Source: Prolixibacteraceae bacterium
Lineage (GTDB): Bacteria; Bacteroidota; Bacteroidia; Bacteroidales; Prolixibacteraceae
Length of the DNA stretch: 35,428 bases
Assembly: GCA_018648265.1 (NCBI GenBank)
Contig: JABGRN010000060.1
Span: 1 to 35,428, forward strand
Direction: 5' to 3'
Shown here one piece after another: positions 957-33,406 of the stretch (position 1 is the stretch's first letter; each line of letters opens with the position of its first letter). The translations under genes were made by a program, and so were the position numbers. The notes under the pieces are model-generated. The model was given only the letters and a program-made list of their open reading frames with translations. It made no database searches and was not told the DNA's origin.

Positions 957-2546
957 ATGGATAAACCAAAAGTACTCATCGTTGACGATTTAATAGAAAA
1001 CCTGATTAGCCTGGAGATGATACTCGAGAGCTTTGATATTACTTTGGTAAGGGCAATGTCGGGCATGGAAGCTTTAAGACAAACATTAAATGAAGACTTT
1101 GCTTTAGCAATCCTCGATGTTCAAATGCCGGGAATGGATGGTTACGAAACATTATCGTTAATGCGAAAACGGAAAAGGACAAAATACTTACCGGTGATTT
1201 TTGTATCGGCCATCCACCAAAGTGATTTGCATATTATCAAGGGAATTGAAACAGGGGCAGTTGATTTTATCCCAAAACCAATTATTCCAGAAATATTAAT
1301 CGGGAAAGTAAGAATTTTCTTAGACCTTTATTTTCAAAAACAGAAATTAAACCATCTTCTGAAACAACTTGAAAAAAACAATAAACAACTTGATGTTCAA
1401 CGAATAAAAGCAGAAAATGCCACCCGGACAAAAGCAATGTTCCTGGCAAATATGTCGCACGAAATAAGGACACCATTAAACGGGATAATTGGAATATCAA
1501 AAATACTGGATGAAGAAACAAACTTAAACCAAAGACAAAAGGAGCTTACTGAAATTTTATCGGCTTCGGGCGAAAATTTATTAAATATTGTTAACAATAT
1601 ACTCGATTTTTCTAAAATTGAATCTGGTCAAATACAACTTGAAAATATTGAATTCGAAATTTCGGATGTTATTTTTTCTATTGTAAAATTATTAAAATTT
1701 AATGCTGATAAAAAAGGCCTAGATATAATTGTTGAAATTGACAAAGATATTCCTAAAAAACTTTTTGGCGATCCACTCCGTTTAAACCAGATAATAACCA
1801 ATTTAATTAACAATGCCATTAAATTTACAGAAAAGGGCATTGTAAAAGTATCGGTTGGTATTGTGAAAAAAGATATTCAAAATATTGAGCTGATATTTAA
1901 AATAATTGACACAGGTATTGGTATTTCTGAAAAAGGAAAGAAAAAACTTTTTAAGGATTTTTCTCAAACCGAAAGTTCAACAACACGTAAATACGGAGGT
2001 ACCGGATTAGGGCTTGCCATTTGCAGTCAGCTAACAACTTTAATGAATGGCGAAATTAGTGTGAACAGTATTTTAGGTAAAGGTGCAGAATTCTGGTTTA
2101 AATTAAATTTTGAATATAATATGGAAAAAAAAGAAGAAAATAAGCTCAGGGACCTTGAAATTCCAAAGAACCTGAAAATTTTATATGCCGAAGACAATCC
2201 GATAAATCAAAAGGTAACCTTACTACATCTTAAATTATTAGGTTTTAATTGCGATATTGCCAACCATGGCATTGAAGCTTTTGAAATGTATAAAAAAAAT
2301 AATTACGACTTAATTTTAATGGATATGATAATGCCCGTATTAGACGGAATAGGGGCAAGCCGGAAAATCAGGAATTACGAAGAAATCAATAAAATTACAA
2401 AACCCGTTTATATAGTTGCCGTAACGGCGAATACATATTCTGAAGATAAACAAAAATGTTTAGAGGCCGGGATGAACGATTTTATTAGCAAGCCTTTTAA
2501 CAGGGTTGAACTGAAAATTATTTTACATAATGCCATCCGGGACTAA
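957..2546 (+). CDS. Soluble hybrid histidine kinase, REC-HisKA-HATPase-REC
   Basis: This 529-residue protein has no signal peptide or membrane segment, so it should act in the cytoplasm. Residues about 5-120 form a receiver with acceptor Asp54 (LDVQMPGMDGYE) and a PKP Lys motif. A short coiled linker leads to the HisKA domain with phospho-accepting His168 in NMSHEIRTPLNG. The ATPase domain shows an N box (NLINNAIKFTEKG), a G1 box (DTGIGIS) and a G2 box (GGTGLGLAI). A second receiver fills about residues 403-529 with Asp456 in LMDMIMPVLDG. The N-terminal receiver suggests it takes input from another kinase, most simply the upstream truncated hybrid, instead of sensing a ligand itself. The ATG start lies 3 bases after the upstream stop, and the 3' end overlaps the CheR gene by 17 bases, which supports a single operon and probable translational coupling. 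Confidence 0.93.
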   Translation: MDKPKVLIVDDLIENLISLEMILESFDITLVRAMSGMEALRQTLNEDFALAILDVQMPGMDGYETLSLMRKRKRTKYLPVIFVSAIHQSDLHIIKGIETGAVDFIPKPIIPEILIGKVRIFLDLYFQKQKLNHLLKQLEKNNKQLDVQRIKAENATRTKAMFLANMSHEIRTPLNGIIGISKILDEETNLNQRQKELTEILSASGENLLNIVNNILDFSKIESGQIQLENIEFEISDVIFSIVKLLKFNADKKGLDIIVEIDKDIPKKLFGDPLRLNQIITNLINNAIKFTEKGIVKVSVGIVKKDIQNIELIFKIIDTGIGISEKGKKKLFKDFSQTESSTTRKYGGTGLGLAICSQLTTLMNGEISVNSILGKGAEFWFKLNFEYNMEKKEENKLRDLEIPKNLKILYAEDNPINQKVTLLHLKLLGFNCDIANHGIEAFEMYKKNNYDLILMDMIMPVLDGIGASRKIRNYEEINKITKPVYIVAVTANTYSEDKQKCLEAGMNDFISKPFNRVELKIILHNAIRD

Positions 2547-3414
2547 ACATAAAAATTATGATGATTCATTTTATGACCAGGGAAACAGCGACATCCTGGA
2601 AATTGAATTGAACTTGTTGTTACAGGCAATTAACCTGAAATATGGCTATGATTTTAGAAATTACAGCATAACCCACCTAAAAAGACGGATACTACACCGT
2701 TTAAAAATAAGCGGGTTAAATACAATTTCCGAATTACAAAACAAGGTACTTTGGGATAAAAATTTTTACGGGATTTTTCTTCAGGACCTTTCGATAAATG
2801 TAACTGAAATGTTCCGCGACCCGGAATTTTATTTAATGTTCCGCACAAAAGTAATACCCATTTTATCCACCTACCCGCATATTAAAATTTGGCAGGCAGG
2901 GTGTTCAACCGGCGAAGAAGTTTATTCATTAGCTATTATACTTCAAGAGGAAAACCTGCTAAACCGAACGCAAATTTACGCCACCGACTTTAACAAAAGT
3001 GTTTTAGAAATAGCAAAACATGGCATTTACAATAAAAAAGAGATGGAATTATATTCCAGAAATTATCACGATTCTGGAGGGAAAAGAAATTTAGCAGACT
3101 ATTATACATCAAAATACGGATCGGTTTTGTTTGATAAATCGCTGGCAAAAAATGTGGTTTTTGCCGACCATAATTTAGTGACAGATGGTGTATTTGCAGA
3201 AGTAAACCTGGTATTCTGCCGTAATGTTTTAATTTATTTTGATAAAATATTACAAAATAAAGTGTTGGGCTTATTTTCAAAAAGCCTTGCGAAAAGGGGA
3301 TTTTTGTGTCTTGGAACAAAAGAAAGCCTGGGATTTTCCGACCACGAAAATAATTTCTCCGTAATAGACAAAGAGAATAAAATCTATAAAAAATTGCAAG
3401 TTCAGAATGATTAA
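2530..3414 (+). CDS. cheR: CheR-type protein-glutamate O-methyltransferase
   Basis: The family transfers a methyl group from S-adenosylmethionine to receptor glutamates. The N-terminal alpha-helical CheR_N region occupies roughly residues 20-80. The signature NVTEMFRDP is at residues 90-98, and the SAM-binding motif GCSTGEE is at 124-130, followed by a VYSLAI helix. A later FCRNVLIYF strand is also typical of the family. The length (294 residues) matches a minimal CheR with no TPR extension. The start at 2530 overlaps the kinase gene by 17 bases; a nearby downstream ATG is out of frame and the next in-frame Met is inside the domain, so this start is well determined. No methyl-accepting receptor is visible in the window. 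Together with the neighbouring CheB and hybrid kinases it probably belongs to an alternative signalling cluster, with kinases or an unlinked receptor as targets. Confidence 0.92.
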   Translation: MPSGTKHKNYDDSFYDQGNSDILEIELNLLLQAINLKYGYDFRNYSITHLKRRILHRLKISGLNTISELQNKVLWDKNFYGIFLQDLSINVTEMFRDPEFYLMFRTKVIPILSTYPHIKIWQAGCSTGEEVYSLAIILQEENLLNRTQIYATDFNKSVLEIAKHGIYNKKEMELYSRNYHDSGGKRNLADYYTSKYGSVLFDKSLAKNVVFADHNLVTDGVFAEVNLVFCRNVLIYFDKILQNKVLGLFSKSLAKRGFLCLGTKESLGFSDHENNFSVIDKENKIYKKLQVQND

Positions 3415-3973
3415 AGCTGTTGTCATCGGCGCATCTTATGGTGGTTTGGAAGCTATTGGGAAAATCTTGATCCAACTTCCGCCGAAATTTGACATTCCAA
3501 TAATAATAGTTTTACACATTGGGCACAATACAATAAATTCATATTTAACTTCATTAAATAATAAAAGCGGGTTTACGGTAAAAGAGGCTGAAGAAAAAGA
3601 AATTATCGAAGAAAAGACAGTATATTTTGCACCTCCCAATTACCACCTCCAAGTTGAGGATGAGTTTTCGTTAAGCCTTTCAACTGATGAAAAAGTTAAT
3701 TTTTCGAGGCCGGCAATTGATGTACTTTTCGAAACAGCGGCCTGGACTTTTAAAAACAAACTTATTGGGGTACTTCTAACTGGTTCAAACAGCGATGGCG
3801 CAGAAGGGATAAAAATCATTAAAAAATACGGAGGTAAAACTATCGTACAAAACCCCAAAACAGCCCTGGGAAAAACTATGCCCGATTCAGCGATAAAACT
3901 TTCTGTACCCGGCTTCATTGTTGATCTTGAAGATATTGCAGAAAAAATTTTGGAGTTAACTATGGAAAACTAA
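3407..3973 (+). CDS. cheB: Stand-alone CheB-type methylesterase domain protein
   Basis: The 188-residue protein is the CheB C-terminal catalytic domain alone; the receiver domain of classical CheB is missing. The expected catalytic triad is visible: Ser10 in GASYGG, His37 in VLHIG and Asp130 in GSNSDGAEG, with spacing close to that of the enteric enzyme. The MPDSAI segment near residues 158-163 is also conserved in the family. The predicted reaction is hydrolysis of glutamyl methyl esters or deamidation of glutamine on a signalling partner. It overlaps cheR by 8 bases, which indicates translational coupling. Without a receiver it cannot be switched by phosphorylation in the usual intramolecular way, so control would have to come from expression or from contact with the hybrid kinases; that last step is inference. 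The gene ends 26 bases from the convergent GH20 gene. Confidence 0.92.
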   Translation: MIKAVVIGASYGGLEAIGKILIQLPPKFDIPIIIVLHIGHNTINSYLTSLNNKSGFTVKEAEEKEIIEEKTVYFAPPNYHLQVEDEFSLSLSTDEKVNFSRPAIDVLFETAAWTFKNKLIGVLLTGSNSDGAEGIKIIKKYGGKTIVQNPKTALGKTMPDSAIKLSVPGFIVDLEDIAEKILELTMEN

Positions 3974-3999
3974 AATAGTTTGATCCTGTTTAAACGGTT

Positions 4000-6384
4000 T
4001 TAATCAGCGGTTTTAGGTTTATACGATTCCCTTTTTTTTACTTTACTAATACCTGCAAGTAATATTGCATTACCCGGCGCAGGTTTGGTTTTTGGATTTC
4101 CTGAACCCACGGTTGCCTGATAATCTGTGGTCCCGTGCAAACTCACCTCTTTTATAATTTTACCAAATCTTGGATTTACCCATTCATAGGCAAAAAAAGT
4201 GATCGGATTGTCTTTTTCGTTAGATGAACATTGAATTGGATCGGCCAGGTAACAATATGCATTCTGCGGCGATCCTGTTTTTCCTTCCATTCTGTCAAGG
4301 CTGTTTTCCCCACCCGGATTCCACTCCAAAATATTAACACCATACTGGATTGGGACAATTGCCTTAAATCCATCTTCATAAACAATTTCGTACCAACCTA
4401 ATAAATCTGACGTGTCGAAAAAGTTTGGAATGTTATAATAAGCTTTTTGATTTCCTGCCGGAACTGCACAAGTATGTAAAAATATCAGGCTACTCACATC
4501 TTCTCCAATTGTTATACCCTTGATTTCATTTGGCTGTAGATTCTCTCCAATTCCCACAGATCCAACCGCAATTGCACAGTTTCCGGATACTGCCGACGGG
4601 TTTACAAGATTGAACACCTTCGCCCGGTTATTTATCTCACCCGATTTTATCGTATTTAAATTAACATTGAAAACTTCTGAGTTTGTTGAGAAATTAAAAT
4701 GTCCGGAGATATCAATGGGGACAATGTCGTCCCCATCTTCACTGGGAATATTTACAGCACTTAAATTTGATCGTATTGAAGGCATTAATTCCCCTGCAAT
4801 GGCAGCAACATCTTTTTGATCGACTGTATTTGTTGACCATAATAAATTAGCACTACCCAGAAAATCTATCATCAAATCTTTCCCAAAATTAAACTCATTT
4901 GTTGCAGCCCAGGAAGACGGGGCGCCTCCAACCACATCAATATTCTTTATCCTTTCGTCCCAATTGCTTATGTTTGGTTTGAAATTTCCGTATAACTGTT
5001 TAAATCCGAATTCATTTAATTCCATATCTTTCTCCTCATCAATCCAAAACCAGTTGAAAACCAAAATATCTTTTGGGATTGATTCCTTTACCAAAGCCGG
5101 ACTTAATGCTCCGGGTTTTTGATATTTTACACCGGTAGAAGATATCCCTTCCCGCGGCCCTGCATTGCGAACACTTTCAAGTAAATGATCTCCCCACATA
5201 GCAACTTTAATTCCTTTGCCAGACATGTAATTGTAAATTTTATTGACATCCTGTGCAAACAGTTCAGAATAGTCCTTCCCTTTACAAAGCGGACAAACGT
5301 CCAATGGCATCCTCCATTCGTCATGTCCGATATGAATCATTTTCGGTTGCATCACTTCAATATATTCATCATAAACATCAAACAAAAGATCGTACGATGC
5401 CGGATTGGAAGGACAGTACGTATCGGGCCAATTATCTTCGGGATATTCCGAAAGCTCAGGGTGCCTTGTTAACAAATAATAGACGTGGGTGAGGGAAGGT
5501 ATTTCAGGAATTACCTCAATGAAATTCTCATTTGCCAACTCCACAATATCCTTTATATCATCCTTTTCAATAATAAATCCATCGCCGGCATCATAATGAC
5601 TCGAAGTTTTTCCTTCTCCCCTGATTCCCACAGGCCGGTTGGAACGTGAATACTGTAAATCTTTTGCAAACTCAATCCAACCTGCATTTACCTCGGGATG
5701 ATTGTCAAGCCTCATGCAATTTAATTCGATGATTACTTTGTTGAATTTGTAGAGTGCCATAAAATCCCTTACGAACCTTTTGAAAAAAGCGATATTCTCT
5801 GGTCCGGGCACATATAAACGTATCGCTCTGAATGGCAGATTTGGCCAATCGCGCACCTTAACTCCCTGAATGTTTGTTCCGTTTTCAGCATCAATTAATT
5901 GACGTAATGACTGCAACCCGAAAAATGCTCCGGGATCGTCCCAGCCTGCAACAACTATTTTTTGATTGCTTACATGCAGAACATATCCTTCAGAACCCGG
6001 GTTTTTATCACTCAATTCAAGTTTGTTCTCAGAACAATACTGTTTTATTAAAAGATTGTCAGCAGCACCCAGAACTATTACTTTCCTATCTTCTGGAATA
6101 TCAGTTTGCGATTCAATTTTTACAGCTATTCCATATTTATCGCTTAACTCCCGAACCAGAAAACGTGCGAGAAAAAGATCCTCTTCACTCCGGTTTTGAG
6201 GAACGATTATGGTTACAGATTCATCCAAAACAAAAACATCAGTTGTAAGTTCTATTGTTTGAGGAATTGGAAATATCAATGGTTTTTCTACTGCGATAAT
6301 TGTAAGTGAAAAAACAAAAAGGAAGCAAATAATAGTTGTCAATTTTAAAATTTGTCCGAGTTTAGTTGTTGTTGTTGTTTTCAT
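4000..6384 (-). CDS. Secreted glycoside hydrolase family 20 (beta-N-acetylhexosaminidase-like)
   Basis: The 794-residue protein starts with a basic, then strongly hydrophobic segment to about residue 31, which is a signal peptide. Residues about 35-165 look like the GH20 domain 2 that precedes the catalytic barrel (PIPQTIEL near the start; GAFFGLQSLRQL at the end). The barrel follows, from VRDWPNLPFRAIRLY onward. The catalytic Asp-Glu pair of GH20 is seen as D355-E356 in HIGHDEWR; GH20 uses the substrate N-acetyl group as nucleophile, with the Asp orienting it and the Glu as acid/base. In most family members this motif reads HxGxDE, so the second His is a variation. A CPLC pair just after the motif is unusual for an exported enzyme. 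About 250 C-terminal residues are probably beta-sandwich. Likely role: removing GlcNAc or GalNAc from glycan fragments. It is the last minus-strand gene of the locus, but 342 bases separate it from the next gene upstream. Confidence 0.85.
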   Translation of the reverse strand: MKTTTTTKLGQILKLTTIICFLFVFSLTIIAVEKPLIFPIPQTIELTTDVFVLDESVTIIVPQNRSEEDLFLARFLVRELSDKYGIAVKIESQTDIPEDRKVIVLGAADNLLIKQYCSENKLELSDKNPGSEGYVLHVSNQKIVVAGWDDPGAFFGLQSLRQLIDAENGTNIQGVKVRDWPNLPFRAIRLYVPGPENIAFFKRFVRDFMALYKFNKVIIELNCMRLDNHPEVNAGWIEFAKDLQYSRSNRPVGIRGEGKTSSHYDAGDGFIIEKDDIKDIVELANENFIEVIPEIPSLTHVYYLLTRHPELSEYPEDNWPDTYCPSNPASYDLLFDVYDEYIEVMQPKMIHIGHDEWRMPLDVCPLCKGKDYSELFAQDVNKIYNYMSGKGIKVAMWGDHLLESVRNAGPREGISSTGVKYQKPGALSPALVKESIPKDILVFNWFWIDEEKDMELNEFGFKQLYGNFKPNISNWDERIKNIDVVGGAPSSWAATNEFNFGKDLMIDFLGSANLLWSTNTVDQKDVAAIAGELMPSIRSNLSAVNIPSEDGDDIVPIDISGHFNFSTNSEVFNVNLNTIKSGEINNRAKVFNLVNPSAVSGNCAIAVGSVGIGENLQPNEIKGITIGEDVSSLIFLHTCAVPAGNQKAYYNIPNFFDTSDLLGWYEIVYEDGFKAIVPIQYGVNILEWNPGGENSLDRMEGKTGSPQNAYCYLADPIQCSSNEKDNPITFFAYEWVNPRFGKIIKEVSLHGTTDYQATVGSGNPKTKPAPGNAILLAGISKVKKRESYKPKTAD

Positions 6385-6726
6385 TTGTTTGAAAATTTAT
6401 TAGAAAACATTAGAAAAGACAGAAGTTGGAAATCTGATGTTAGTTATCGTTGGCCAAATCATCCTCAATAGTTCGTCAGTTGATGTAAGGTCGTTTCATT
6501 TTTCGTTATTTTTTTTGAACCACATAGGCACATTAGATCACAGAACTATGTTTTTCTAATGTAAAATGTGGTTTGCAATTCTTTATAGCGACTTGCTTTA
6601 TAATTTAATAGACATAATTCCAGTTCATTTTATCCTTACTTAAGTGTGCGGTTTTTCACTCGATCGATTCATTTTAATGCATGATTTTTTCTTTGTGAAA
6701 CTTCCATTAAATATTTCCGGGTATGG
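6385..6726. other. Intergenic region between GH20 and AlkD-like genes
   Basis: This 342-base gap holds no convincing gene. Its main content is the nested palindrome described at 6518-6573. The part next to the GH20 start (6385-6480) should contain that gene's promoter, but I found no exact match to the Bacteroidota TAnnTTTG box there. Confidence 0.5.
6518..6573. repeat. Nested inverted repeat (AACCACAT / ATGTGGTT)
   Basis: The outer arms AACCACAT (6518-6525) and ATGTGGTT (6566-6573) are perfect complements. Inside them a second pair, ACATTAG (6530-6536) and CTAATGT (6556-6562), is also perfect. The middle is about 19 bases. Elements built on an ACCACAT arm are common between genes in Bacteroidota, so this is probably a decayed copy of a dispersed repeat that could also act as a terminator. 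The family assignment is from memory. Confidence 0.65.
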
Positions 6727-7443
6727 TTAACATCTTGCAGTTTTTCTCTTTTTGCCAACCTTTCCTTTATCAATCGATTTTTCAATATAATCTTTTGCGA
6801 GTGGTACTTTACAAGCAGTTCCTCCCATATTCACATTTACTTTACCAATTTTAAGTGCTACTTCCTGCGTCTTTGCTGTTAATTCTTTAATGTAGGTTCC
6901 AACCGAAATTACAAATCCATTCATGGTGTATCGTACCCTGTTCTGTGAATTATGAATTTCCTTTACAATTGTATCGAGCAATTTATTATAAGCATCAATA
7001 TCTAAATCTTCATCCTGGTGTACTGCTGCGTAGTTTGCTAAAGTTGCCCAACCTGCTGAGATAATCCGTTCTTCACCAGATGCAATCCACTTCAGGCCAA
7101 GTTCAAATCCATATTCCGTTTCAGCTGCAACCCATGGGACAGCAAATTCATTTAAATAATACCAATATGCCTGATCGACCCATTTCTCAAGTTGTTCTTT
7201 AGTAATTTTTTTTTCATCCGCCATTAATCCGGCAAGGTACATTGCATCCGAATTCCCGGTTTCATAAAGTTCCAAAGAGAGTTCGTGGTTCTTCTTTGTC
7301 TTTTTAAGTATTTTCTTGAGATCCGCTACTCTCACTCCAAAAAATGGCTCTCTTGCACCATGTTTTTTTAAAGTGTTTTTTGTGGTTTCATCTCCAAATT
7401 TTTCAAGTTCAATAAGAATTTCTTGTACTGTCATAATATTCAT
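6727..7443 (-). CDS. AlkD-like DNA alkylation repair protein
   Basis: The 238-residue protein is all-helical in character and matches the DNA alkylation repair (AlkD/AlkC, HEAT-like repeat) family. Supporting segments are the N-terminal KKHGAREPFFGVRVADLKKI stretch, the EFAVPWVAAETEYGFELG region and the basic C-terminus ending KKRKTARC, all of which I recognise from Bacteroidota members annotated this way. The family excises positively charged alkylated bases such as 3- or 7-methylpurines without base flipping. There is no signal peptide, so it is cytoplasmic. ATG codons at 7443 and 7434 are both possible starts; I kept the longer one. It sits 78 bases after the beta-helix gene on the same strand, but it has no obvious link to glycan use and may simply be a neighbour. 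Confidence 0.85.
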   Translation of the reverse strand: MNIMTVQEILIELEKFGDETTKNTLKKHGAREPFFGVRVADLKKILKKTKKNHELSLELYETGNSDAMYLAGLMADEKKITKEQLEKWVDQAYWYYLNEFAVPWVAAETEYGFELGLKWIASGEERIISAGWATLANYAAVHQDEDLDIDAYNKLLDTIVKEIHNSQNRVRYTMNGFVISVGTYIKELTAKTQEVALKIGKVNVNMGGTACKVPLAKDYIEKSIDKGKVGKKRKTARC

Positions 7444-22344: not shown

Positions 22345-25300
22345 ATGAATCAGAAAAAATTTGGTGCTTTTGCCGGGGTTTTTACACCATCTATTTTAAC
22401 CATTTTAGGTGTAATCATGTATTTGAGGTTGGGCTGGGTTGTTGGCCAGGCAGGGTTAATAGCAGCCATTGCAATTATTATTGTTGCGCACGTAATTTCA
22501 ATCACAACCGGACTAAGTATTACAGCCATTTCAACCGATAAAAAAATAAAGGCAGGCGGTTTGTATTATATGCTCTCGCGGAGCTTGGGATTACCAATGG
22601 GAGGTGCAATTGGAATTACACTTTTTGTGGGAACAGCTTTGAGTATTTCGCTGTATTTGGTAGGTTTTACCGAAAGTGTTTTTGCCATTGAAGGGATCCG
22701 TAATTTTCTGGGTCTCGAAGGTAGCATTGATGATATTCGAATAGTTGGCAGTATAATTTTAATTTTTCTGGTAATTCTGGCTTTTATTAGTACTTCGCTT
22801 GCCATAAAAACTCAGTTTATTATTTTGGGTGCTATAGCACTTTCTCTATTTTCGATATTCTTTGGCATTTTTTCGAATGTTGAATTTCAGCCGGCTGATG
22901 TTTCGCGAATAGCAATTGACGGCCATGTTCCTTTCGAAACTATTTTTGCAATATTTTTCCCGGCTGTTACTGGATTTACGGCTGGTGTTGCCATGTCGGG
23001 CGATTTAAGAAATCCTAAAAAATCGATTCCTGTTGGAACGCTGGGGGCCATTTTTATTGGCCTGGTTGTTTACCTGAGTTTGGCATTCGTTTTTGCTTAT
23101 TTTGTCGATCGTGATTTACTTTTAAACGACACAAATTTCCTTACAAAAATTGCCTGGTTTTCGCCACTTGTAATTGCCGGAATTTGGGGTGCAACTTTGT
23201 CGTCAGCTTTGGGTGGTATTTTAGGAGGCCCCAGAATTCTTCAAGCTGTTGCAGCTGACAAAATATTACCACGGATATTTGCCCGAAGGCAGGGTGTAAA
23301 TAACGAACCAAGAAATGCACTAATCTTAACCTTTTTAATTGCAGAAGGAGGAATTTTAATCGGAGAATTAAATGCAATTGCCGAAGTTGTTTCCATGTTT
23401 TATATTTCTGCGTATGGTTTTATAAACCTTTCCTTTGCACTGGAAAAATGGGCAAGCTCCGATTTCCGCCCCTCGTTTAAAGCACCTGGATGGATTGGTA
23501 TAATTGGGTTTGCAGCCAGTTTTATTGTTATGTTTAAAATGAATACCATGGCAATGTTTGCATCCATGGTTATTATTGGATTTATTTACATTGTACTAAA
23601 ACGCAAACAATTTCAACTTGATTTTGGCGATGTATGGCAAAGTGTTTATACAACGCTCATTCGAACTTCACTACATAAAATTGACCAACGGGAACTGGAA
23701 CAACGCAACTGGATGCCCAACATTATTTTGTTTAGCAGTGGTACTAAAAACCGGCAACACTTGCTTGAGTTTGGGAAAAACCTGGTTGGCAAACACGGCT
23801 TTTTGTCGAACTTCGATTTGATAGAGACCAAAGATGAAGAAATTCAGTTCTCGAAACATCAGCAATCGGTTAAAGACGAATTAAGCAAGGAATTTCAGGG
23901 TATATTTTCGAGAAAACAAACGGTTAGTGATATTTACGGCGGAATTGAAACAATTGCCCAAACCTATGGATTTTCGGGTGTTGAACCAAATACCGTAATG
24001 TTGAATTGGGCTAAAAAAGGGCACGACTCAAAACGATTTGTGCACATGTTAAACACCATTTCGAATCTCGATTTGAATATTATTATGATGGATTACGATC
24101 GATCTGTCGGTTTCGGAAAATATGAAACTATTGATATTTGGTGGCGCGGTGGTGGACATAACGGAAATTTTGCACTTTCATTAACAAAATTTCTTTGGGC
24201 GTCGGATCAATGGAGAAATGCAAAACTGCGGCTTTTAATTGTTAACCCCAACAACGATGCACGCGAAAAAATTGAACGCGACACAAACAAAATACTCGAA
24301 AATATTAGAATAAATGCCGAAGTAAAAGTAATAAATAACCAAATTGAAAGACGGACTTTTTACAAAATTATAAGAGACGAATCGATAAATACCGATCTTA
24401 TTATTATGGGAATTCCGATGCTAAAACAAGGGGCAGAGGAAGATTTTGTAAATGACACAACCGAATTATGTAAAGACATTGGAACCGTTCTTTTTCTAAA
24501 GGCTAGCACACAATTCAAGGAGTTGTCGGTTGGTAGTTCATTGTTTAAAAAAGGTGCTCAAAAACAAACTATTGAAATTAGCAATATTCAAAAAGCTGAG
24601 ATTGAAATTCCAAAAATTGAACACACAAAACATAAAAAATTAAACGTTGAGTTGGCTACCCTTGAAACCAACATTAAAAGTTTGTTCAATCAATTAATCG
24701 ACAATCATCAGAAAATAGATTTTCAGGCGAACAGCTTATTACTTTCCGAATTAAACAAAAGAGTTAAAAATTCATTAAACACCTGGAAAACGGAGTTGGA
24801 CGAAAAAACTACTACAAAGTTTGCTACAAATCAGACATCAACAATAGTAACACGTCTCAGAAAATTAATTAACGATGAGTACAAAGATCAGCTGGAAATA
24901 ATTAAAGATCAGAACAATAATTTTATAAATTCATATAAAGAAGAAACCGATTGGATTATTGAAAAGCTCCCTCAAACCGTTGTAATTGTACTTTCTGACG
25001 AGGACATAAAAAAGGGGGAAAAAGAAAATGCAGGTGTCCGATTTTTCAAATTCAAACAAAGAATTATCCGTAAAATAAACAAGAAGGAAATAGAATATTC
25101 AGTTCAGCTAAACCGTTTTGTCAGAAGCAATTTCCTACTTCACCGCTACTCAATACTTTTAAACTATTATTCGGGTTCGGGTTTGTTAATTTATCAGTCG
25201 CATATTTTATTTAAAAAACTGTCGGAAAATATTTTAAAATCGATTGAATTGCTCGACAAACACGCCTATTATAACAAAATCAGCAGCGATGTTATTGAAC

Positions 25301-27471
25301 AAACACAAAAAGAAATAAACGCGTATTTTGAGTTATATAACAATCAGATTAACGAACTGCAACATAGTCTGAAACAAAAAACCCTCGTTGAAATTAGCAC
25401 ACATTTACAACAACTTACCGAATTGCTAAAAACAACAAATCCAAATTGTTTTATTAAGTCGAACAGTGCTGTCCGAAGTATTGAGAAACGTGGATTTAAA
25501 CTTCTGCAGGCTATTCCGGAGCATAATTTAAAAAACTGGTTGTTACTGTCGAACTCGCAGCGATTATCGACACTTTTACAATATTATACAGCACAGTTAA
25601 CTGCAATTTTCTCGAACAATAGAAAAAACTTTGCTGAAAAAGTAAATGATTTACACCGGCAATTATCAGAGAAAATCGCTCAATCTATTGACACGGAAGA
25701 AAACGGCAATCTTCAAACAAATATTGAATTGACTGTTATGGAGATTTCATCTTCAATACGAGAGATTAAGGAGAATACCATAAAACGAATAAATCAAATT
25801 TCGGGAAGATTGCCAAACCACTTGGTTATTATTAACAAAGATTCAGCAAACCGATTTGAAACCCTTCAATTCAAACAAATACAAAGTATTGATATTTCTT
25901 TCTCGCACCTTGTTGATTATATCACACAAAACGAAATAATTGAACCTTTTGGGAATTATATTTCGCAACACATTGAAACGCTTGAACTCGACTTTAAACG
26001 AGCAAATGATGCGCACCGTTTATTAAAATTAAGTTTGAAAAGCGACGTATCGAAAGAGCTAACAAAGACTGAACAAAAGAAACAATTCGAAGTCCAAAAA
26101 GAAAAAACAAACAAAGCACTTGAAACATTACTAACCAATTTTGATATTAACGACAGGCATTTTACGGAAATAATAAATACTGTTTTTGAGAAATTACAAT
26201 ATCAGAATTTCATTGATTTAGCGAGCAATCAAAAACGATACACAAATGCCATTGAATCGAGAAAGCGGTCGAACTATTTTTTCAATAAAATAAAAAGCAC
26301 AAAAACTGCTGTGAAAGAGAAATTAACTTCGCTGGTGTATTTAACAAGTAGTAGCACGCTTGCTGCGCAGGATTATATTCAAGGCGATGCACAAAGTTTA
26401 TTTCAATCGGTAAAAAAAGAGATTGAAAAAATATCTCCCAAAGAACCGGTACTTAATCAACTTCCGTTTTATTACAAACAGTTATTTTTAAATAAACAGC
26501 ATTTTTTAAACGAGTTTTGGGTTAGCAGGGAAACTATCATGAAAAGTTTCCTGAATATACTGGAAGAAAATCAATCCATCTCGAAAAGTGTAATTCTGTT
26601 ACTTGGAGATCGCAATTCAGGGAAATCGTTTTGGTTAAACCAAGCATCTTCAATTGCTCAGCAGCAAACAAATATAATTGTAGTTCAACCAACTTATAAC
26701 CAAACAACCGACGTAAAAAGTTTTAATAATGCGATTCGGAAAGCTACCCGCGGCATGGGAACCATTGAATCTGTTTTTGAAAATCTAAAACCCGGAACTT
26801 GCCTCGCATTCGACGATTTGGAACTTTGGTGGAACCAAAAAGAAAGCGGGAACAAAGTTGTCAGCCATCTTTTAAAATTAATTCAGGCGTATTCAGCGAA
26901 AGTACGGTTTGTACTTTCGGCAAATACAATTAGCTACGAAATTATGAAACGCAGTACCGACCTGAAAAACCTTCAACCTTATATTTTTATTTGCAAACCA
27001 ATGAATGCCAAAGAAATTGGAAAGGCCGTTTTAAAACGCCATTATTCTGGTGGTATTCCGCTGGGAAATATGAATAGAAAAAATGGCAGGATGAGTACCA
27101 TCGACGAAGCAAAATTCTTTTCTAAACTCTTTTTGCTGAGCTTTGGAAACATTGGGTACGCCATGCAATTGTGGTTATCGTCTATCGAAAAAGTTGAAAA
27201 GGATACAATATTTATTAAAAAACAAGAACTTCCCGATTTGCGTTTTTTAGAATCGCTCCCTTCAGAATGGATAATAATTTTAAACCAGTTGATTATTCAC
27301 AAAAGGTTAAAATTCAGGTATTTTGAAAGCGCTGACAACAATTTCATTAAAACAATAAATGAAATGTTACGAAGTACAATTCTTGTTGAATCTGCCAAAG
27401 GTTATGTTTCAATAAATTCATTTATTTACCCATATATTTTAAATTATTTTCAACATAATAAACTGATATAA
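22345..27471 (+). CDS. SLC12-like cation-chloride cotransporter fused to a coiled coil and a C-terminal P-loop ATPase
   Basis: I start the gene at ATG 22345 (MNQKKFGAFAGVF), giving 1708 residues; the frame runs back to a TTG at 22147, but those 66 codons look non-coding. Residues about 8-417 hold twelve membrane helices of the amino acid-polyamine-cation superfamily, with the SLC12-like opening TPSILTILGVIMYLRLGWVVGQ. Residues about 425-725 match the soluble domain of SLC12 transporters (NWMPNIILFSSG, IDIWWRGGGHNGNFALSL). About 600 residues of charged, Leu/Ile/Gln-rich helix without membrane segments follow, consistent with long coiled coils. The end is a P-loop NTPase: Walker A GDRNSGKS at 1421-1428 (bases 26605-26628) and Walker B CLAFDDLELWW with Asp1490-Asp1491. 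Expected activity is electroneutral salt cotransport; control by the ATPase is inference. The MscS-like gene starts 3 bases after the stop. Confidence 0.88.
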   Translation: MNQKKFGAFAGVFTPSILTILGVIMYLRLGWVVGQAGLIAAIAIIIVAHVISITTGLSITAISTDKKIKAGGLYYMLSRSLGLPMGGAIGITLFVGTALSISLYLVGFTESVFAIEGIRNFLGLEGSIDDIRIVGSIILIFLVILAFISTSLAIKTQFIILGAIALSLFSIFFGIFSNVEFQPADVSRIAIDGHVPFETIFAIFFPAVTGFTAGVAMSGDLRNPKKSIPVGTLGAIFIGLVVYLSLAFVFAYFVDRDLLLNDTNFLTKIAWFSPLVIAGIWGATLSSALGGILGGPRILQAVAADKILPRIFARRQGVNNEPRNALILTFLIAEGGILIGELNAIAEVVSMFYISAYGFINLSFALEKWASSDFRPSFKAPGWIGIIGFAASFIVMFKMNTMAMFASMVIIGFIYIVLKRKQFQLDFGDVWQSVYTTLIRTSLHKIDQRELEQRNWMPNIILFSSGTKNRQHLLEFGKNLVGKHGFLSNFDLIETKDEEIQFSKHQQSVKDELSKEFQGIFSRKQTVSDIYGGIETIAQTYGFSGVEPNTVMLNWAKKGHDSKRFVHMLNTISNLDLNIIMMDYDRSVGFGKYETIDIWWRGGGHNGNFALSLTKFLWASDQWRNAKLRLLIVNPNNDAREKIERDTNKILENIRINAEVKVINNQIERRTFYKIIRDESINTDLIIMGIPMLKQGAEEDFVNDTTELCKDIGTVLFLKASTQFKELSVGSSLFKKGAQKQTIEISNIQKAEIEIPKIEHTKHKKLNVELATLETNIKSLFNQLIDNHQKIDFQANSLLLSELNKRVKNSLNTWKTELDEKTTTKFATNQTSTIVTRLRKLINDEYKDQLEIIKDQNNNFINSYKEETDWIIEKLPQTVVIVLSDEDIKKGEKENAGVRFFKFKQRIIRKINKKEIEYSVQLNRFVRSNFLLHRYSILLNYYSGSGLLIYQSHILFKKLSENILKSIELLDKHAYYNKISSDVIEQTQKEINAYFELYNNQINELQHSLKQKTLVEISTHLQQLTELLKTTNPNCFIKSNSAVRSIEKRGFKLLQAIPEHNLKNWLLLSNSQRLSTLLQYYTAQLTAIFSNNRKNFAEKVNDLHRQLSEKIAQSIDTEENGNLQTNIELTVMEISSSIREIKENTIKRINQISGRLPNHLVIINKDSANRFETLQFKQIQSIDISFSHLVDYITQNEIIEPFGNYISQHIETLELDFKRANDAHRLLKLSLKSDVSKELTKTEQKKQFEVQKEKTNKALETLLTNFDINDRHFTEIINTVFEKLQYQNFIDLASNQKRYTNAIESRKRSNYFFNKIKSTKTAVKEKLTSLVYLTSSSTLAAQDYIQGDAQSLFQSVKKEIEKISPKEPVLNQLPFYYKQLFLNKQHFLNEFWVSRETIMKSFLNILEENQSISKSVILLLGDRNSGKSFWLNQASSIAQQQTNIIVVQPTYNQTTDVKSFNNAIRKATRGMGTIESVFENLKPGTCLAFDDLELWWNQKESGNKVVSHLLKLIQAYSAKVRFVLSANTISYEIMKRSTDLKNLQPYIFICKPMNAKEIGKAVLKRHYSGGIPLGNMNRKNGRMSTIDEAKFFSKLFLLSFGNIGYAMQLWLSSIEKVEKDTIFIKKQELPDLRFLESLPSEWIIILNQLIIHKRLKFRYFESADNNFIKTINEMLRSTILVESAKGYVSINSFIYPYILNYFQHNKLI

Positions 27472-27474
27472 TTT

Positions 27475-28197
27475 ATGGAATTATCACCTTCGTTTTTTAA
27501 TATAATCAAATTTGTGCTGCTAATTTTAATAGTTTTGCTTTCACTTAAAACGATTAATTTTTTTGCAAAACGTTTGCTTAAACAACAACAATTCAGATCG
27601 TTCTGGAACAGATATTTTAGTGTATTTGAATTGTTTGTTTGGCTGGTTTTTGGACTGCTTAGTATTGAATTTTTTACGGTAAATAATATAATAATTGCCG
27701 TAATAATTGCCGTGGTTTTTACACTTGTAGTTTTTGTTCTTATCTATTTTTATTTTAAAGAAATATTAGTCAGGATCTTTTTTAAACTTACAACCGACAT
27801 TACAGTTGGCGATGAAGTGAAAAATGAAAATTATGCAGGTAAAATTATACAGATAGAATATAACCAATTAGTACTTGAAAATGCCGATGGAAGTCAGGCT
27901 GGAATTCCTTTCAGCAAAATAATTTTTAACCCACTAATAAAACAATCGCCCTCGCCTCATCTGCATCGTTTCGAAAGTGTATTTACCGTGCCAGTAAGTT
28001 CCGACAGAAACAGTATTCAGCAACAAATAATTTCATTATTGCAATCAGATTTGCGTGTTTCAGGGGCGGTTGAACCAAAAATATCTTTTTCTGAACTAAA
28101 TGAATCAACGTATCAAATAAAAGTAATTGCATTTTTATTTAATCCGGCTGACACCGAACCTTTGAGGGAATCGTTAAAAAAGATATTTACTGACTAA
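27475..28197 (+). CDS. Small MscS-like mechanosensitive channel protein
   Basis: The 240-residue protein has three hydrophobic helices (about residues 9-26, 46-65 and 70-96). The MscS-type beta domain follows, recognised by TDITVGDEVKNENYAGKIIQIEYNQL and NADGSQAGIPFSKI. The C-terminal alpha/beta part (about 160-240) fits the rest of the MscS cytoplasmic cage. It is somewhat shorter than the E. coli type (about 286 residues). The pore helix before TDITVGD is short and lacks the Gly/Ala pattern of classical TM3, so gating could differ. The start lies 3 bases after the stop of the SLC12-like fusion gene, which strongly suggests co-translation. A salt importer or exporter paired with a tension-gated release valve would make sense in osmotic adaptation; this link is inference. 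Confidence 0.82.
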   Translation: MELSPSFFNIIKFVLLILIVLLSLKTINFFAKRLLKQQQFRSFWNRYFSVFELFVWLVFGLLSIEFFTVNNIIIAVIIAVVFTLVVFVLIYFYFKEILVRIFFKLTTDITVGDEVKNENYAGKIIQIEYNQLVLENADGSQAGIPFSKIIFNPLIKQSPSPHLHRFESVFTVPVSSDRNSIQQQIISLLQSDLRVSGAVEPKISFSELNESTYQIKVIAFLFNPADTEPLRESLKKIFTD

Positions 28198-28235: not shown

Positions 28236-28315
28236 CGTCATTGCGAACGAAATGAAGCAATCTCAACAAACACATTTACCGTTATTTTCGGATTGCTTCG
28301 TACCTCGCAATGACG
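28236..28315. repeat. Long imperfect palindrome with CGTCATTGCGA arms
   Basis: The left arm (28236-28262) begins CGTCATTGCGA and ends GAAGCAATC. The right arm (28291-28315) begins GATTGCTTC and ends TCGCAATGACG. The two ends of each arm pair perfectly, with a mismatched middle and a loop of about 28 bases. I recognise this arm sequence as a widespread Bacteroidota intergenic element. It lies 39 bases after the MscS-like gene and may serve as its transcript end. Confidence 0.75.
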
Positions 28316-32401: not shown

Positions 32402-33406
32402 ATGAAAGAAAAAAGACCAATTGATATCAAAAGAGAAAGAGGAGGTGGTGCTGATATAGGCACAAAAGAAGACGGGGCAATTATTGAAATGTTTAAACTT
32501 GGAAATAAGCTAATTGTTATAAAAGAAAAGTCCGTTTATGACTTCAATTTTGCTGATGATATTGACCCTGAGCGCAAACACCCTAACTTGCCTTCGAATA
32601 CACAAAAACTGATACTCGACATTGGTACTGAATCTATAATGTTTTCTAGGATTTTTTTAACGGCAAAAAATTTATTTAAATCAGAATTTTTGTCACCTGA
32701 TGTAAATGTGGAAGATGCTCTCAATTTGACACTTGAAGCTATTCAAGAGTTTAAAGTTCTCGAAAATGAGATTAATGAGTATTTGACGCTTGAAAAAATA
32801 GCAATTGAGGAGTATGACGAAAGAAAGAACAAACCTGTCTCGCACGCTGTTCCATCAATACCAAATTTAACAACTCGTTGTAAGACAATTTTTCAAAAAA
32901 TTGACCATATCTCACAAATCCAAATGGACTTAATACGAATGTTCTTCCCAGACTTTAGTAAAAAAAGATATTATTCACATTTACCTGAGTTTATCGAAGA
33001 AAAATTTGGCACTGAAGATACGTTCACTCAATTTGCTCGTGATATTTTATATATGATTGAACTTACAAGAAATATTCGAAACTGTCTAGACCATAGGAGA
33101 ACTGAAATAACAATTCAAGATTTTGAGCTTCAAGTAAGTTCTGACATATTTTCTCCAACAATTGAAATGAGATATAATGGAAGTGAGTTAGAAAGAATAT
33201 CACTATCAGCTTTTCTTGAGAATGTAATGGAAAACATGATTCAAACATTTGAAAATTTCATGCCTTATTTGTGTAGCAAAAACATTAGGAATGACAGCAT
33301 AATGCCAGTTGAAGTATCACTAATACCAGAGAAAAGAAGAAGAAACAAAAATATAAAATATGCCTATTGGTCTCCATTAGGAGACGGTGGATATTTTCAT
33401 CAATAA
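32402..33406 (+). CDS. Uncharacterised protein with a HEPN-type R-x4-H motif
   Basis: I do not recognise the full family. The 334-residue protein has no signal peptide or membrane helix and is predicted mostly helical. The informative part is FARDILYMIELTRNIRNCLD followed by HRR, in which R226-N227 and H231 form the R-x4-H pattern (Arg followed by a polar residue) of HEPN ribonucleases. In HEPN toxins, abortive-infection proteins and CRISPR effectors this Arg and His are catalytic. Motif plus helical context is suggestive but not proof, as some HEPN domains do not cut RNA. The N-terminal 70 residues and the basic C-terminus (EKRRRNKNIKYAYW) are unassigned. No antitoxin-like small gene is next to it. 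It sits alone between short inverted repeats in what looks like a mobile cassette. A role in phage defence or stress response is inference. Confidence 0.8.
   Translation: MKEKRPIDIKRERGGGADIGTKEDGAIIEMFKLGNKLIVIKEKSVYDFNFADDIDPERKHPNLPSNTQKLILDIGTESIMFSRIFLTAKNLFKSEFLSPDVNVEDALNLTLEAIQEFKVLENEINEYLTLEKIAIEEYDERKNKPVSHAVPSIPNLTTRCKTIFQKIDHISQIQMDLIRMFFPDFSKKRYYSHLPEFIEEKFGTEDTFTQFARDILYMIELTRNIRNCLDHRRTEITIQDFELQVSSDIFSPTIEMRYNGSELERISLSAFLENVMENMIQTFENFMPYLCSKNIRNDSIMPVEVSLIPEKRRRNKNIKYAYWSPLGDGGYFHQ

Follow-up and report, generated by a model that had tools for sequence, protein, structure and literature searches.

The window analysed here is the whole 35,428-nucleotide stretch of contig JABGRN010000060.1 (assembly GCA_018648265.1, positions 1 to 35,428) from a Prolixibacteraceae bacterium of the Bacteroidota, in which positions 22345-27471 form one open frame that translates into a single chain of 1708 residues. 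This fused chain joins a carrier of the SLC12 (cation-chloride cotransporter) type to a helical middle region and a predicted ATPase of the AAA+/STAND kind, which makes it about 990 residues longer than SLC12 carriers. The ATG of a small second gene, whose product is modelled with the MscS fold, lies 3 bases after its stop codon. The features of this gene pair are as follows.

22345..23634, forward strand: SLC12-type membrane domain, residues 1-430 (AA_permease match, SLC12 structures, ion-site residues)
23635..24489, forward strand: SLC12 soluble C-terminal domain, residues 431-715 (PDB alignments)
24490..26421, forward strand: middle region, residues 716-1359, predicted as two related long-helix units with short-strand pairs (AlphaFold, hhalign)
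26422..27468, forward strand: predicted AAA+/STAND-type ATPase domain, residues 1360-1708 (family profile, AlphaFold, Foldseek)
26605..26628, forward strand: Walker A motif GDRNSGKS, residues 1421-1428 (sequence, family alignment)
26803..26832, forward strand: Walker B motif LAFDD followed by LELWW, residues 1487-1496 (sequence, family alignment)
27037..27042, forward strand: Arg-His pair, residues 1565-1566, conserved among the SLC12-fused forms (56 of 57, with a gap in the remaining row)
27238..27468, forward strand: putative winged-helix-like C-terminal subdomain, residues about 1632-1708 (secondary structure of the model, resemblance to ORC/Cdc6/RuvB)
27475..28197, forward strand: small protein of 240 residues, predicted MscS fold (Foldseek of the model, sub-threshold PF00924)

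The carrier part was assigned by profile and structure searches. AA_permease of Pfam covers residues 12-423 (E 1.8e-48), and the K-Cl cotransporter model TIGR00930 aligns over residues 3-670 (E 2.5e-121) with 406.5 bits, which misses its curated cut-off of 953.4; we class the carrier as an SLC12 relative outside the TIGR00930 subfamily. The top solved structures for the chain are SLC12A7, A4 and A2 (E 6e-81 to 2e-77), with the membrane and soluble domains both aligned. The PDB alignments to KCC chains extend to residues 682-704, the soluble-domain chain 6vw9, named 'K+/Cl- cotransporter', aligns at residues 527-663 (E 3e-9), and the nearest structures to the membrane domain alone are those of NKCC1 (E 2e-70). 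The ion sites were read against the NKCC1 definitions in the available portion of PMC7889885, where Asn298 and Trp300 contribute backbone carbonyls. On this map the window keeps the Na+ serines S286 and S287 at the NKCC1-like site and the K+/Cl- site residues Y104, P206, T209 and Y357 (the Tyr, Pro and Thr of the K+ site and the Tyr of the second Cl- site), and it departs from NKCC1 at Asn298 (Thr), Trp300 (Leu), Met303 (Ile), Ile501 (Phe) and Leu502 (Thr). Conservation across the 57 fused sequences is high, with Ser in 54 at S286 and in 52 at S287, and with Y104 kept in 51, T209 in 53 and Y357 in 55; the Asn298 position is Thr in 46 of the 57 and the Trp300 position is Leu in 51. The exceptions cluster in diverged members such as loci L041, L042 and L152. 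Because the NKCC1 ion-site residues are mostly kept, the window carrier is probably Na+-coupled and moves K+ and Cl-.

The C-terminal domain of the window is a weak match when taken alone (AAA_16, E 0.0098, 16.8 bits against a Pfam cut-off of 32.6). AAA_16 is matched by every one of 11 aligned family members, the window among them (best E 3.4e-8), nSTAND-type matches appear too, and the Foldseek matches of the ATPase model, at E 1e-6 to 4e-4 and prob 1.00, include ORC1, Cdc6, RuvB, CED-4, TnsC and an archaeal STAND ATPase; without TnsC the range is E 1e-6 to 6e-5. On these family matches and the resemblance of the model, residues 1360-1708 are assigned to the AAA+/STAND kind of ATPase, with an end that resembles a winged helix. 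The ATPases of the ORC/Cdc6/RuvB kind end in a winged helix. The genome of the window has this ATPase in one copy only. An earlier note, made from the letters of the window, had described an SLC12 carrier and a P-loop ATPase in one 1708-residue chain, with a Walker A GDRNSGKS and a DD-type Walker B in its C-terminal third; the single open frame, the SLC12 matches across both carrier domains, the two motifs in the translation and the predicted AAA+/STAND fold all agree with that description. With a conserved Walker A and a Walker B present, the ATPase might be thought to power transport directly and so to turn a secondary carrier into a pump. We consider this scarcely probable, since the mostly kept Na+-coupling site provides the carrier with a driving force of its own, the Walker B motif varies, and to our knowledge no AAA+/STAND domain powers an ion carrier.

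The middle region had been read in the earlier note as about 600 residues of probable coiled coil, and this did not hold. The AlphaFold model of residues 716-1708, built with 55 sequences (mean predicted local distance difference test score, pLDDT, 79.8), gives residues 716-1359 as about ten long helices with short strands in two pairs; the halves of the region match each other as an internal repeat (hhalign 93.5%, E 2e-7, 106 columns; reversed control 6.2%). These features of the model ruled out a plain coiled-coil arm.

The downstream gene, which the earlier note had overlooked, encodes a protein predicted to have three membrane helices, a beta domain and an alpha/beta domain. Its sequence reaches 17.4 bits against PF00924, below the cut-off of 20.2, and its model (pLDDT 91.4) is matched by Foldseek to MscS structures (E 2.4e-11, prob 1.00). 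The corresponding small partners from other fused loci exceeded the PF00924 cut-off in all eight cases tested, with 22.3-43.8 bits.

The searches for relatives were confined to one phylum, in which many genomes are drafts. A search of 101 genomes recovered the full chain from nine beyond the window's own, one of these as two matches in one frame, and one further chain was divided between two contig ends; the identities were 28-83%, and for one of them 24% over its first part. The ATPase-domain profile (A1) matched in 77 of 393 genomes of the order and in 75 of 395 of the phylum, and the order-level rows fell into 61 with at least 255 bits, 19 with 124-167 bits and 7 weaker ones. Loci were chosen by their ATPase and never by their neighbours. 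From the rows of at least 255 bits, 56 of 61 were taken as wide loci (G403:C139, G309, G219, G318 and G169:C51, with open frames of 796-1544, were left out), together with 15 of the 19 at 124-167 bits and 19 of the 77 non-window rows at phylum level, hand-picked for variety; with loci sampled in part and by hand, the counts given below for carrier-free and antiporter forms are no frequencies. The 98 loci examined include 94 with the ATPase gene, and in 56 of these the SLC12 domains stand in the same chain and in the same order. The diversity of the chains is considerable, with only four pairs above 70% identity among the 55 complete ones (window included), and the closest named record is a Draconibacterium metagenome-assembled genome (Bacteroidota, Prolixibacteraceae) at 83% identity. 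The conservation of the fusion in other Bacteroidota, which the earlier note had proposed to check, is thus found, and with 56 further fused loci of such diversity the chance that a sequencing or assembly error joined two genes is practically negligible.

In a tree of the SLC12 domains a branch with 100/99 support separates fused from unfused domains, which supports a single origin of the fusion but does not prove it; this tree holds 55 fused and 22 unfused loci, the unfused all from the window's own family group, its root is arbitrary, and the branches of L152, L042 and L041 are very long. The genome of the window also has two unfused SLC12 genes.

The helix-ATPase module was found with other carriers and with none. 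ATPase genes of 926-1107 residues that lack a carrier adjoin MscS genes of the ordinary kind, of which the three tested match PF00924 at E about 1e-22. In genes of about 1495 residues a PF00999 antiporter domain stands in front of the module and an MscS gene lies behind; PF00999 was matched in four of six such fusions tested (L099, L100, L101 and L108, E 3.7e-21 to 1.8e-15), and the front part of L098 matches those four by profile (E 8e-77). We take these PF00999 carriers to be of the CPA2 type. The front part of the sixth, L102, matched neither PF00999 nor the L098-type profile nor any family tested. Three more loci have a run of three genes, for an ATPase of 749-808 residues, a small protein of 185-241 residues and an antiporter matching PF00999 (E 9e-19 to 2e-22); in two of these loci the small gene weakly matches MscS (28-30 bits). 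Between the carrier-free and fused types the ATPase domains are clearly related (hhalign E 2e-39), and related by profile are the middle regions of the SLC12-fused, carrier-free and antiporter-fused forms (98.4-99.1%, E 9e-15 to 2e-18, 562-575 columns; reversed controls 0.2-4%), with the caution that helical composition can inflate such profile scores. The latter comparison used 55 SLC12-fused, 20 carrier-free and 5 antiporter-fused sequences, and omitted 7 of the 27 other ATPases, L102 and two truncated chains; a smaller one, of 11 against 3 sequences, found no relation (probability 0.5%), and we relied on the larger. In the ATPase tree L102 lies apart from the five CPA2-fused forms.

Since the pair of helix-ATPase and MscS-family genes occurs carrier-free, with SLC12 and with a CPA2-type antiporter, its sequence relationships mark it as a chassis coupled to interchangeable ion carriers. 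A lone fusion curiosity, considered as another candidate, was ruled out by the partner gene and by the carrier-free and antiporter forms, which point to a module. The earlier note had expected a regulatory design new to the SLC12 family; the design is not specific to that family, the same module being fused to CPA2-type antiporters. Near the ATPase fusions of L098 and L102, genes for the potassium-uptake proteins TrkH and TrkA were observed, and because of this adjacency the module may belong there to a wider locus of K+ control. One carrier-free gene, at 3127-6111 of L167 (genome G226), encodes 994 residues with an SLC12-type ATPase (352 bits), and the small MscS type lies elsewhere in that genome; because L167 is nested in the SLC12 group of the ATPase tree, it has probably lost its carrier secondarily.

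Function is indicated most strongly by the MscS-fold partner gene. Of the 56 SLC12-fused loci, 43 have an MscS-family gene as their immediate downstream neighbour, and so do all five CPA2-fused loci and L102, 22 of the 27 other ATPase genes (upstream in two more) and 5/5 truncated ones. The intergenic gap is -4 to +17 bases in 36 of the 43 SLC12-linked pairs. Clustering of all neighbours in the 56 loci gave the small MscS-like family in 43, and the next real family in only seven, antisense frames within the fused gene being excluded. That next family is itself a longer MscS-like gene (for example L037 1558-3306, 582 residues). The window's genome has just three MscS genes above the Pfam cut-off, and chance is therefore a very poor explanation of the pairing. 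The link also follows the ATPase module and not the carrier, because among 22 unfused SLC12 genes only one is accompanied by an MscS gene within the fetched flank. The single exception is an unfused SLC12 gene of the window's own genome (L050/L003, G000:C89, about 6261-9490 in L050), which is followed by an MscS gene (PF00924 E 7e-14).

The two genes also co-occur where they do not adjoin. Twelve genomes were searched for the small MscS type, namely ten with room for an MscS neighbour but without one, G130 (contig end) and G226 (ATPase without carrier). It was present in 10 of the 12 (178-280 bits), nine times away from the fused gene and in G200 beside a second copy, so that eight of the ten genomes with room carry it elsewhere or beside a second copy. 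Within the window's genus and family 32 genomes were covered, and the type was found in both that have the fusion and was absent from all 30 without it (best 73 bits), the status 'without fusion' being taken from the 101-genome search. The model used for the small type (A7) includes G009, G012 and G200:C90, whose matches are not independent. From the pairing and the co-occurrence we hold with considerable confidence that the carrier, the ATPase and the MscS-like protein are functional partners.

The pore helix of MscS is defined by a Gly/Ala pattern. Ordinary MscS neighbours have a mean of 44% Gly plus Ala in this helix (6-10 of 16 residues; 23 of 24 measured), and the small partners have 13.5% (0-7 of 16; 47 of 49) with 25% aromatics; the stretch was located by motif and a few of the 47 are off register, so the contrast is approximate. 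The 16 residues of the window contain one Ala. Antiporter-linked partners have 0-4 Gly/Ala per 16, with L100, L101 and L108, read by eye, at 0-2. Because its pore helix is without the pattern, the window partner, although modelled with the MscS fold, is not filed as an MscS channel. The nucleotide site goes the other way. The Walker A Lys is kept in 56 of 57 SLC12-fused and 5 of 5 CPA2-fused forms and in L102, and in only 10 of the 27 other ATPases (7 of 23 without L167 and the three antiporter gene runs). As the Walker Lys and Gly/Ala counts diverge between carrier-linked and carrier-free forms, forms with a carrier attached keep the nucleotide switch and have lost the pore pattern, and forms without a carrier tend to the reverse. 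Among the carrier-free ATPases, 16 of 23 have Ala, Ile, Val, Arg, Thr or Asn in place of the Lys (including L045, L046, L047, L096, L156 and L159-L165) and retain the pair with an ordinary MscS gene; they are possible pseudo-ATPases.

These counts bear on an osmotic safety valve, in which the MscS-like protein would be a conducting pore gated by the ATPase and the carrier would refill the ions after release. The predicted MscS fold of the window partner and the ordinary pore sequence of the MscS proteins paired with carrier-free helix-ATPases speak for such a valve. The loss of the Walker Lys in 17 of the 27 other ATPases and the missing Gly/Ala pattern in most carrier-linked pore helices speak against it, and we regard it as unlikely.

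The explanation that we prefer is one membrane complex in which the SLC12 carrier is switched by its own ATPase in response to an MscS-fold reporter of tension. The products of the fused gene and of the MscS-like gene would assemble into this complex; the MscS-fold partner, lacking the usual pore, would report membrane tension; the helical middle region would relay the signal to the ATPase; and the AAA+/STAND-type ATPase would turn the carrier on or off by nucleotide and tension, for the purpose of cell-volume or turgor control. We infer here a physical contact between the two products, ATP as a switch and not as an energy source, a tension signal, a direction of switching and the cell-volume or turgor purpose. 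That the ATPase is a regulatory switch seems to us fairly probable, membrane tension as the input is tentative and somewhat short of an even chance, and the model as a whole is about evenly balanced between right and wrong. Of the built-in sensor or oligomerisation arm suggested by the earlier note, the control of transport survives, a regulatory role being the best fit, and the coiled-coil oligomerisation arm is not supported.

Several observations weigh against this model. Thirteen of the 56 SLC12-fused loci are without an adjoining MscS gene, although 3 of the 13 reach a contig end, and at the depth of this search the small type is absent from the genomes G157 and G262, whose best matches reach 51 and 39 bits; an MscS partner may therefore be dispensable for the carrier. 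The neighbour profiles were derived from the first loci found, and detection therefore favours that family. The second position of Walker B varies among the 57 fused sequences (Asp 43, Asn 10, Glu 2, Ala 1, Ser 1), and because of this variation hydrolysis may be slow or absent in some members. The change in the pore helix could mean a different pore rather than a loss of conduction, the Gly/Ala ranges of the two groups overlapping. L041, L042 and L152 are without one or both Na+ serines and still keep the gene pair, so that the argument from the ion sites fails for them; in L152 (G407, 1941-6848; AA_permease E 5.6e-11) most ion-site residues are altered, the Walker lysine is Thr, and an MscS-like gene still adjoins. 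A pure transport switch, moreover, leaves the winged helix unexplained.

This last point leads to a transceptor, in which the carrier and the MscS-like protein would sense ions or tension and the ORC/STAND-like winged-helix ATPase would act on DNA or on a cytoplasmic partner and control expression. The STAND ATPases include transcription regulators such as MalT, and the winged-helix-like end of the model, its resemblance to ORC/Cdc6/RuvB and the positive net charge of the middle region (+17) and the ATPase region (+15) would suit such a role. Winged helices in AAA+ proteins can, however, mediate protein contacts, and the ion-site residues are mostly those of the working NKCC1, which a mere receptor need not keep. 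The MscS-like gene apart, no neighbour family recurs beyond 7 of the 56 loci, but a target at a distance would escape this count. We give the transceptor a small chance. A defence or cell-suicide system, in which the STAND-like ATPase would trigger an ion flux, is very unlikely. It draws on the AAA_16 and nSTAND-type matches and on the occurrence of STAND-type NTPases in conflict systems, as described in the available portions of PMC7159879 and PMC8195603. Against it, PADLOC, run on five proteins, matched neither of the two from the window, the domain order is conserved in diverse genomes, and the window genes that flank the pair are, by Pfam, an E1 dehydrogenase and sulfatases; a CPA2-fused relative weakly matches mad8 (E 6e-6) and mad3 (E 0.0016).

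If the tension-switched complex is right, bacteria would control cation-chloride cotransport for cell volume by direct protein coupling, as against the separate kinases of animals. How volume is sensed and relayed to salt carriers is a long-standing open question, and a carrier, an ATP-dependent switch and a probable tension sensor contained in two genes would make the coupling directly testable when reconstituted. That two unrelated carriers bear one control unit suggests that the regulatory design is transferable, and for the MscS fold, a role in a protein that lacks the customary pore sequence would be new. It is a more doubtful proposal, yet conceivable, that the Bacteroidota hold an undescribed class of tension-regulated carriers, in which a pore-less MscS-fold sensor and a helical AAA+/STAND ATPase are plugged onto SLC12 and CPA2-type carriers for volume control by direct coupling of the proteins. 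Elsewhere in the window, a short repeat CATTGCGAACGAAATGAAGCAATC at 28239-28262, which occurs eight times in the genome with up to 3 mismatches allowed and not at all in the reversed control, looks like a dispersed palindromic element, and a frame of 334 residues at 32402-33406 has no Pfam or NCBIfam match up to E 0.1.

Compared with known systems, the carrier shares with NKCC1 and KCC the membrane domain, the soluble domain and most ion-site residues (homologues at E 6e-81), and it differs from them by the addition of a predicted AAA+/STAND-type ATPase and an MscS-fold partner. Animal SLC12 carriers are controlled by phosphorylation through separate kinases. The statement of the earlier note that SLC12 transporters normally lack any ATPase needs some care, because human KCC1 and NKCC1 bind ATP/ADP, with hydrolysis left open in the available portion of PMC8280820. 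The same source describes, in that portion, TeaABC-TeaD as a transporter with a nucleotide-binding regulatory subunit. The window resembles TeaABC-TeaD and TrkH-TrkA in that a transporter would be controlled by a nucleotide-binding part. In TrkH-TrkA this part is the nucleotide-binding TrkA, which controls an ion transporter; the nucleotide-binding folds of both systems differ from the AAA+/STAND type, and we know of no MscS-fold partner for either. With ORC/Cdc6, RuvB and the STAND proteins CED-4 and archaeal paby2304, the window ATPase has in common the P-loop core, the modelled C-terminal fold and the Walker A and B motifs, but it shares its chain with an ion carrier and a region of helical repeats, and its sequence stays below the Pfam cut-offs. 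The partner has the three membrane helices, the beta domain and the alpha/beta domain of an MscS channel in its model, and is distinguished by its short length (240 residues), its Gly/Ala-poor pore helix and its score below the PF00924 cut-off. The CPA2-type antiporters (PF00999) have relatives that bear the same helix-ATPase module and MscS partner, and there the difference is that the carrier of the window is SLC12. No description of the combination of carrier, ATPase and MscS protein was found in the open-licence literature. The individual parts belong to known folds.

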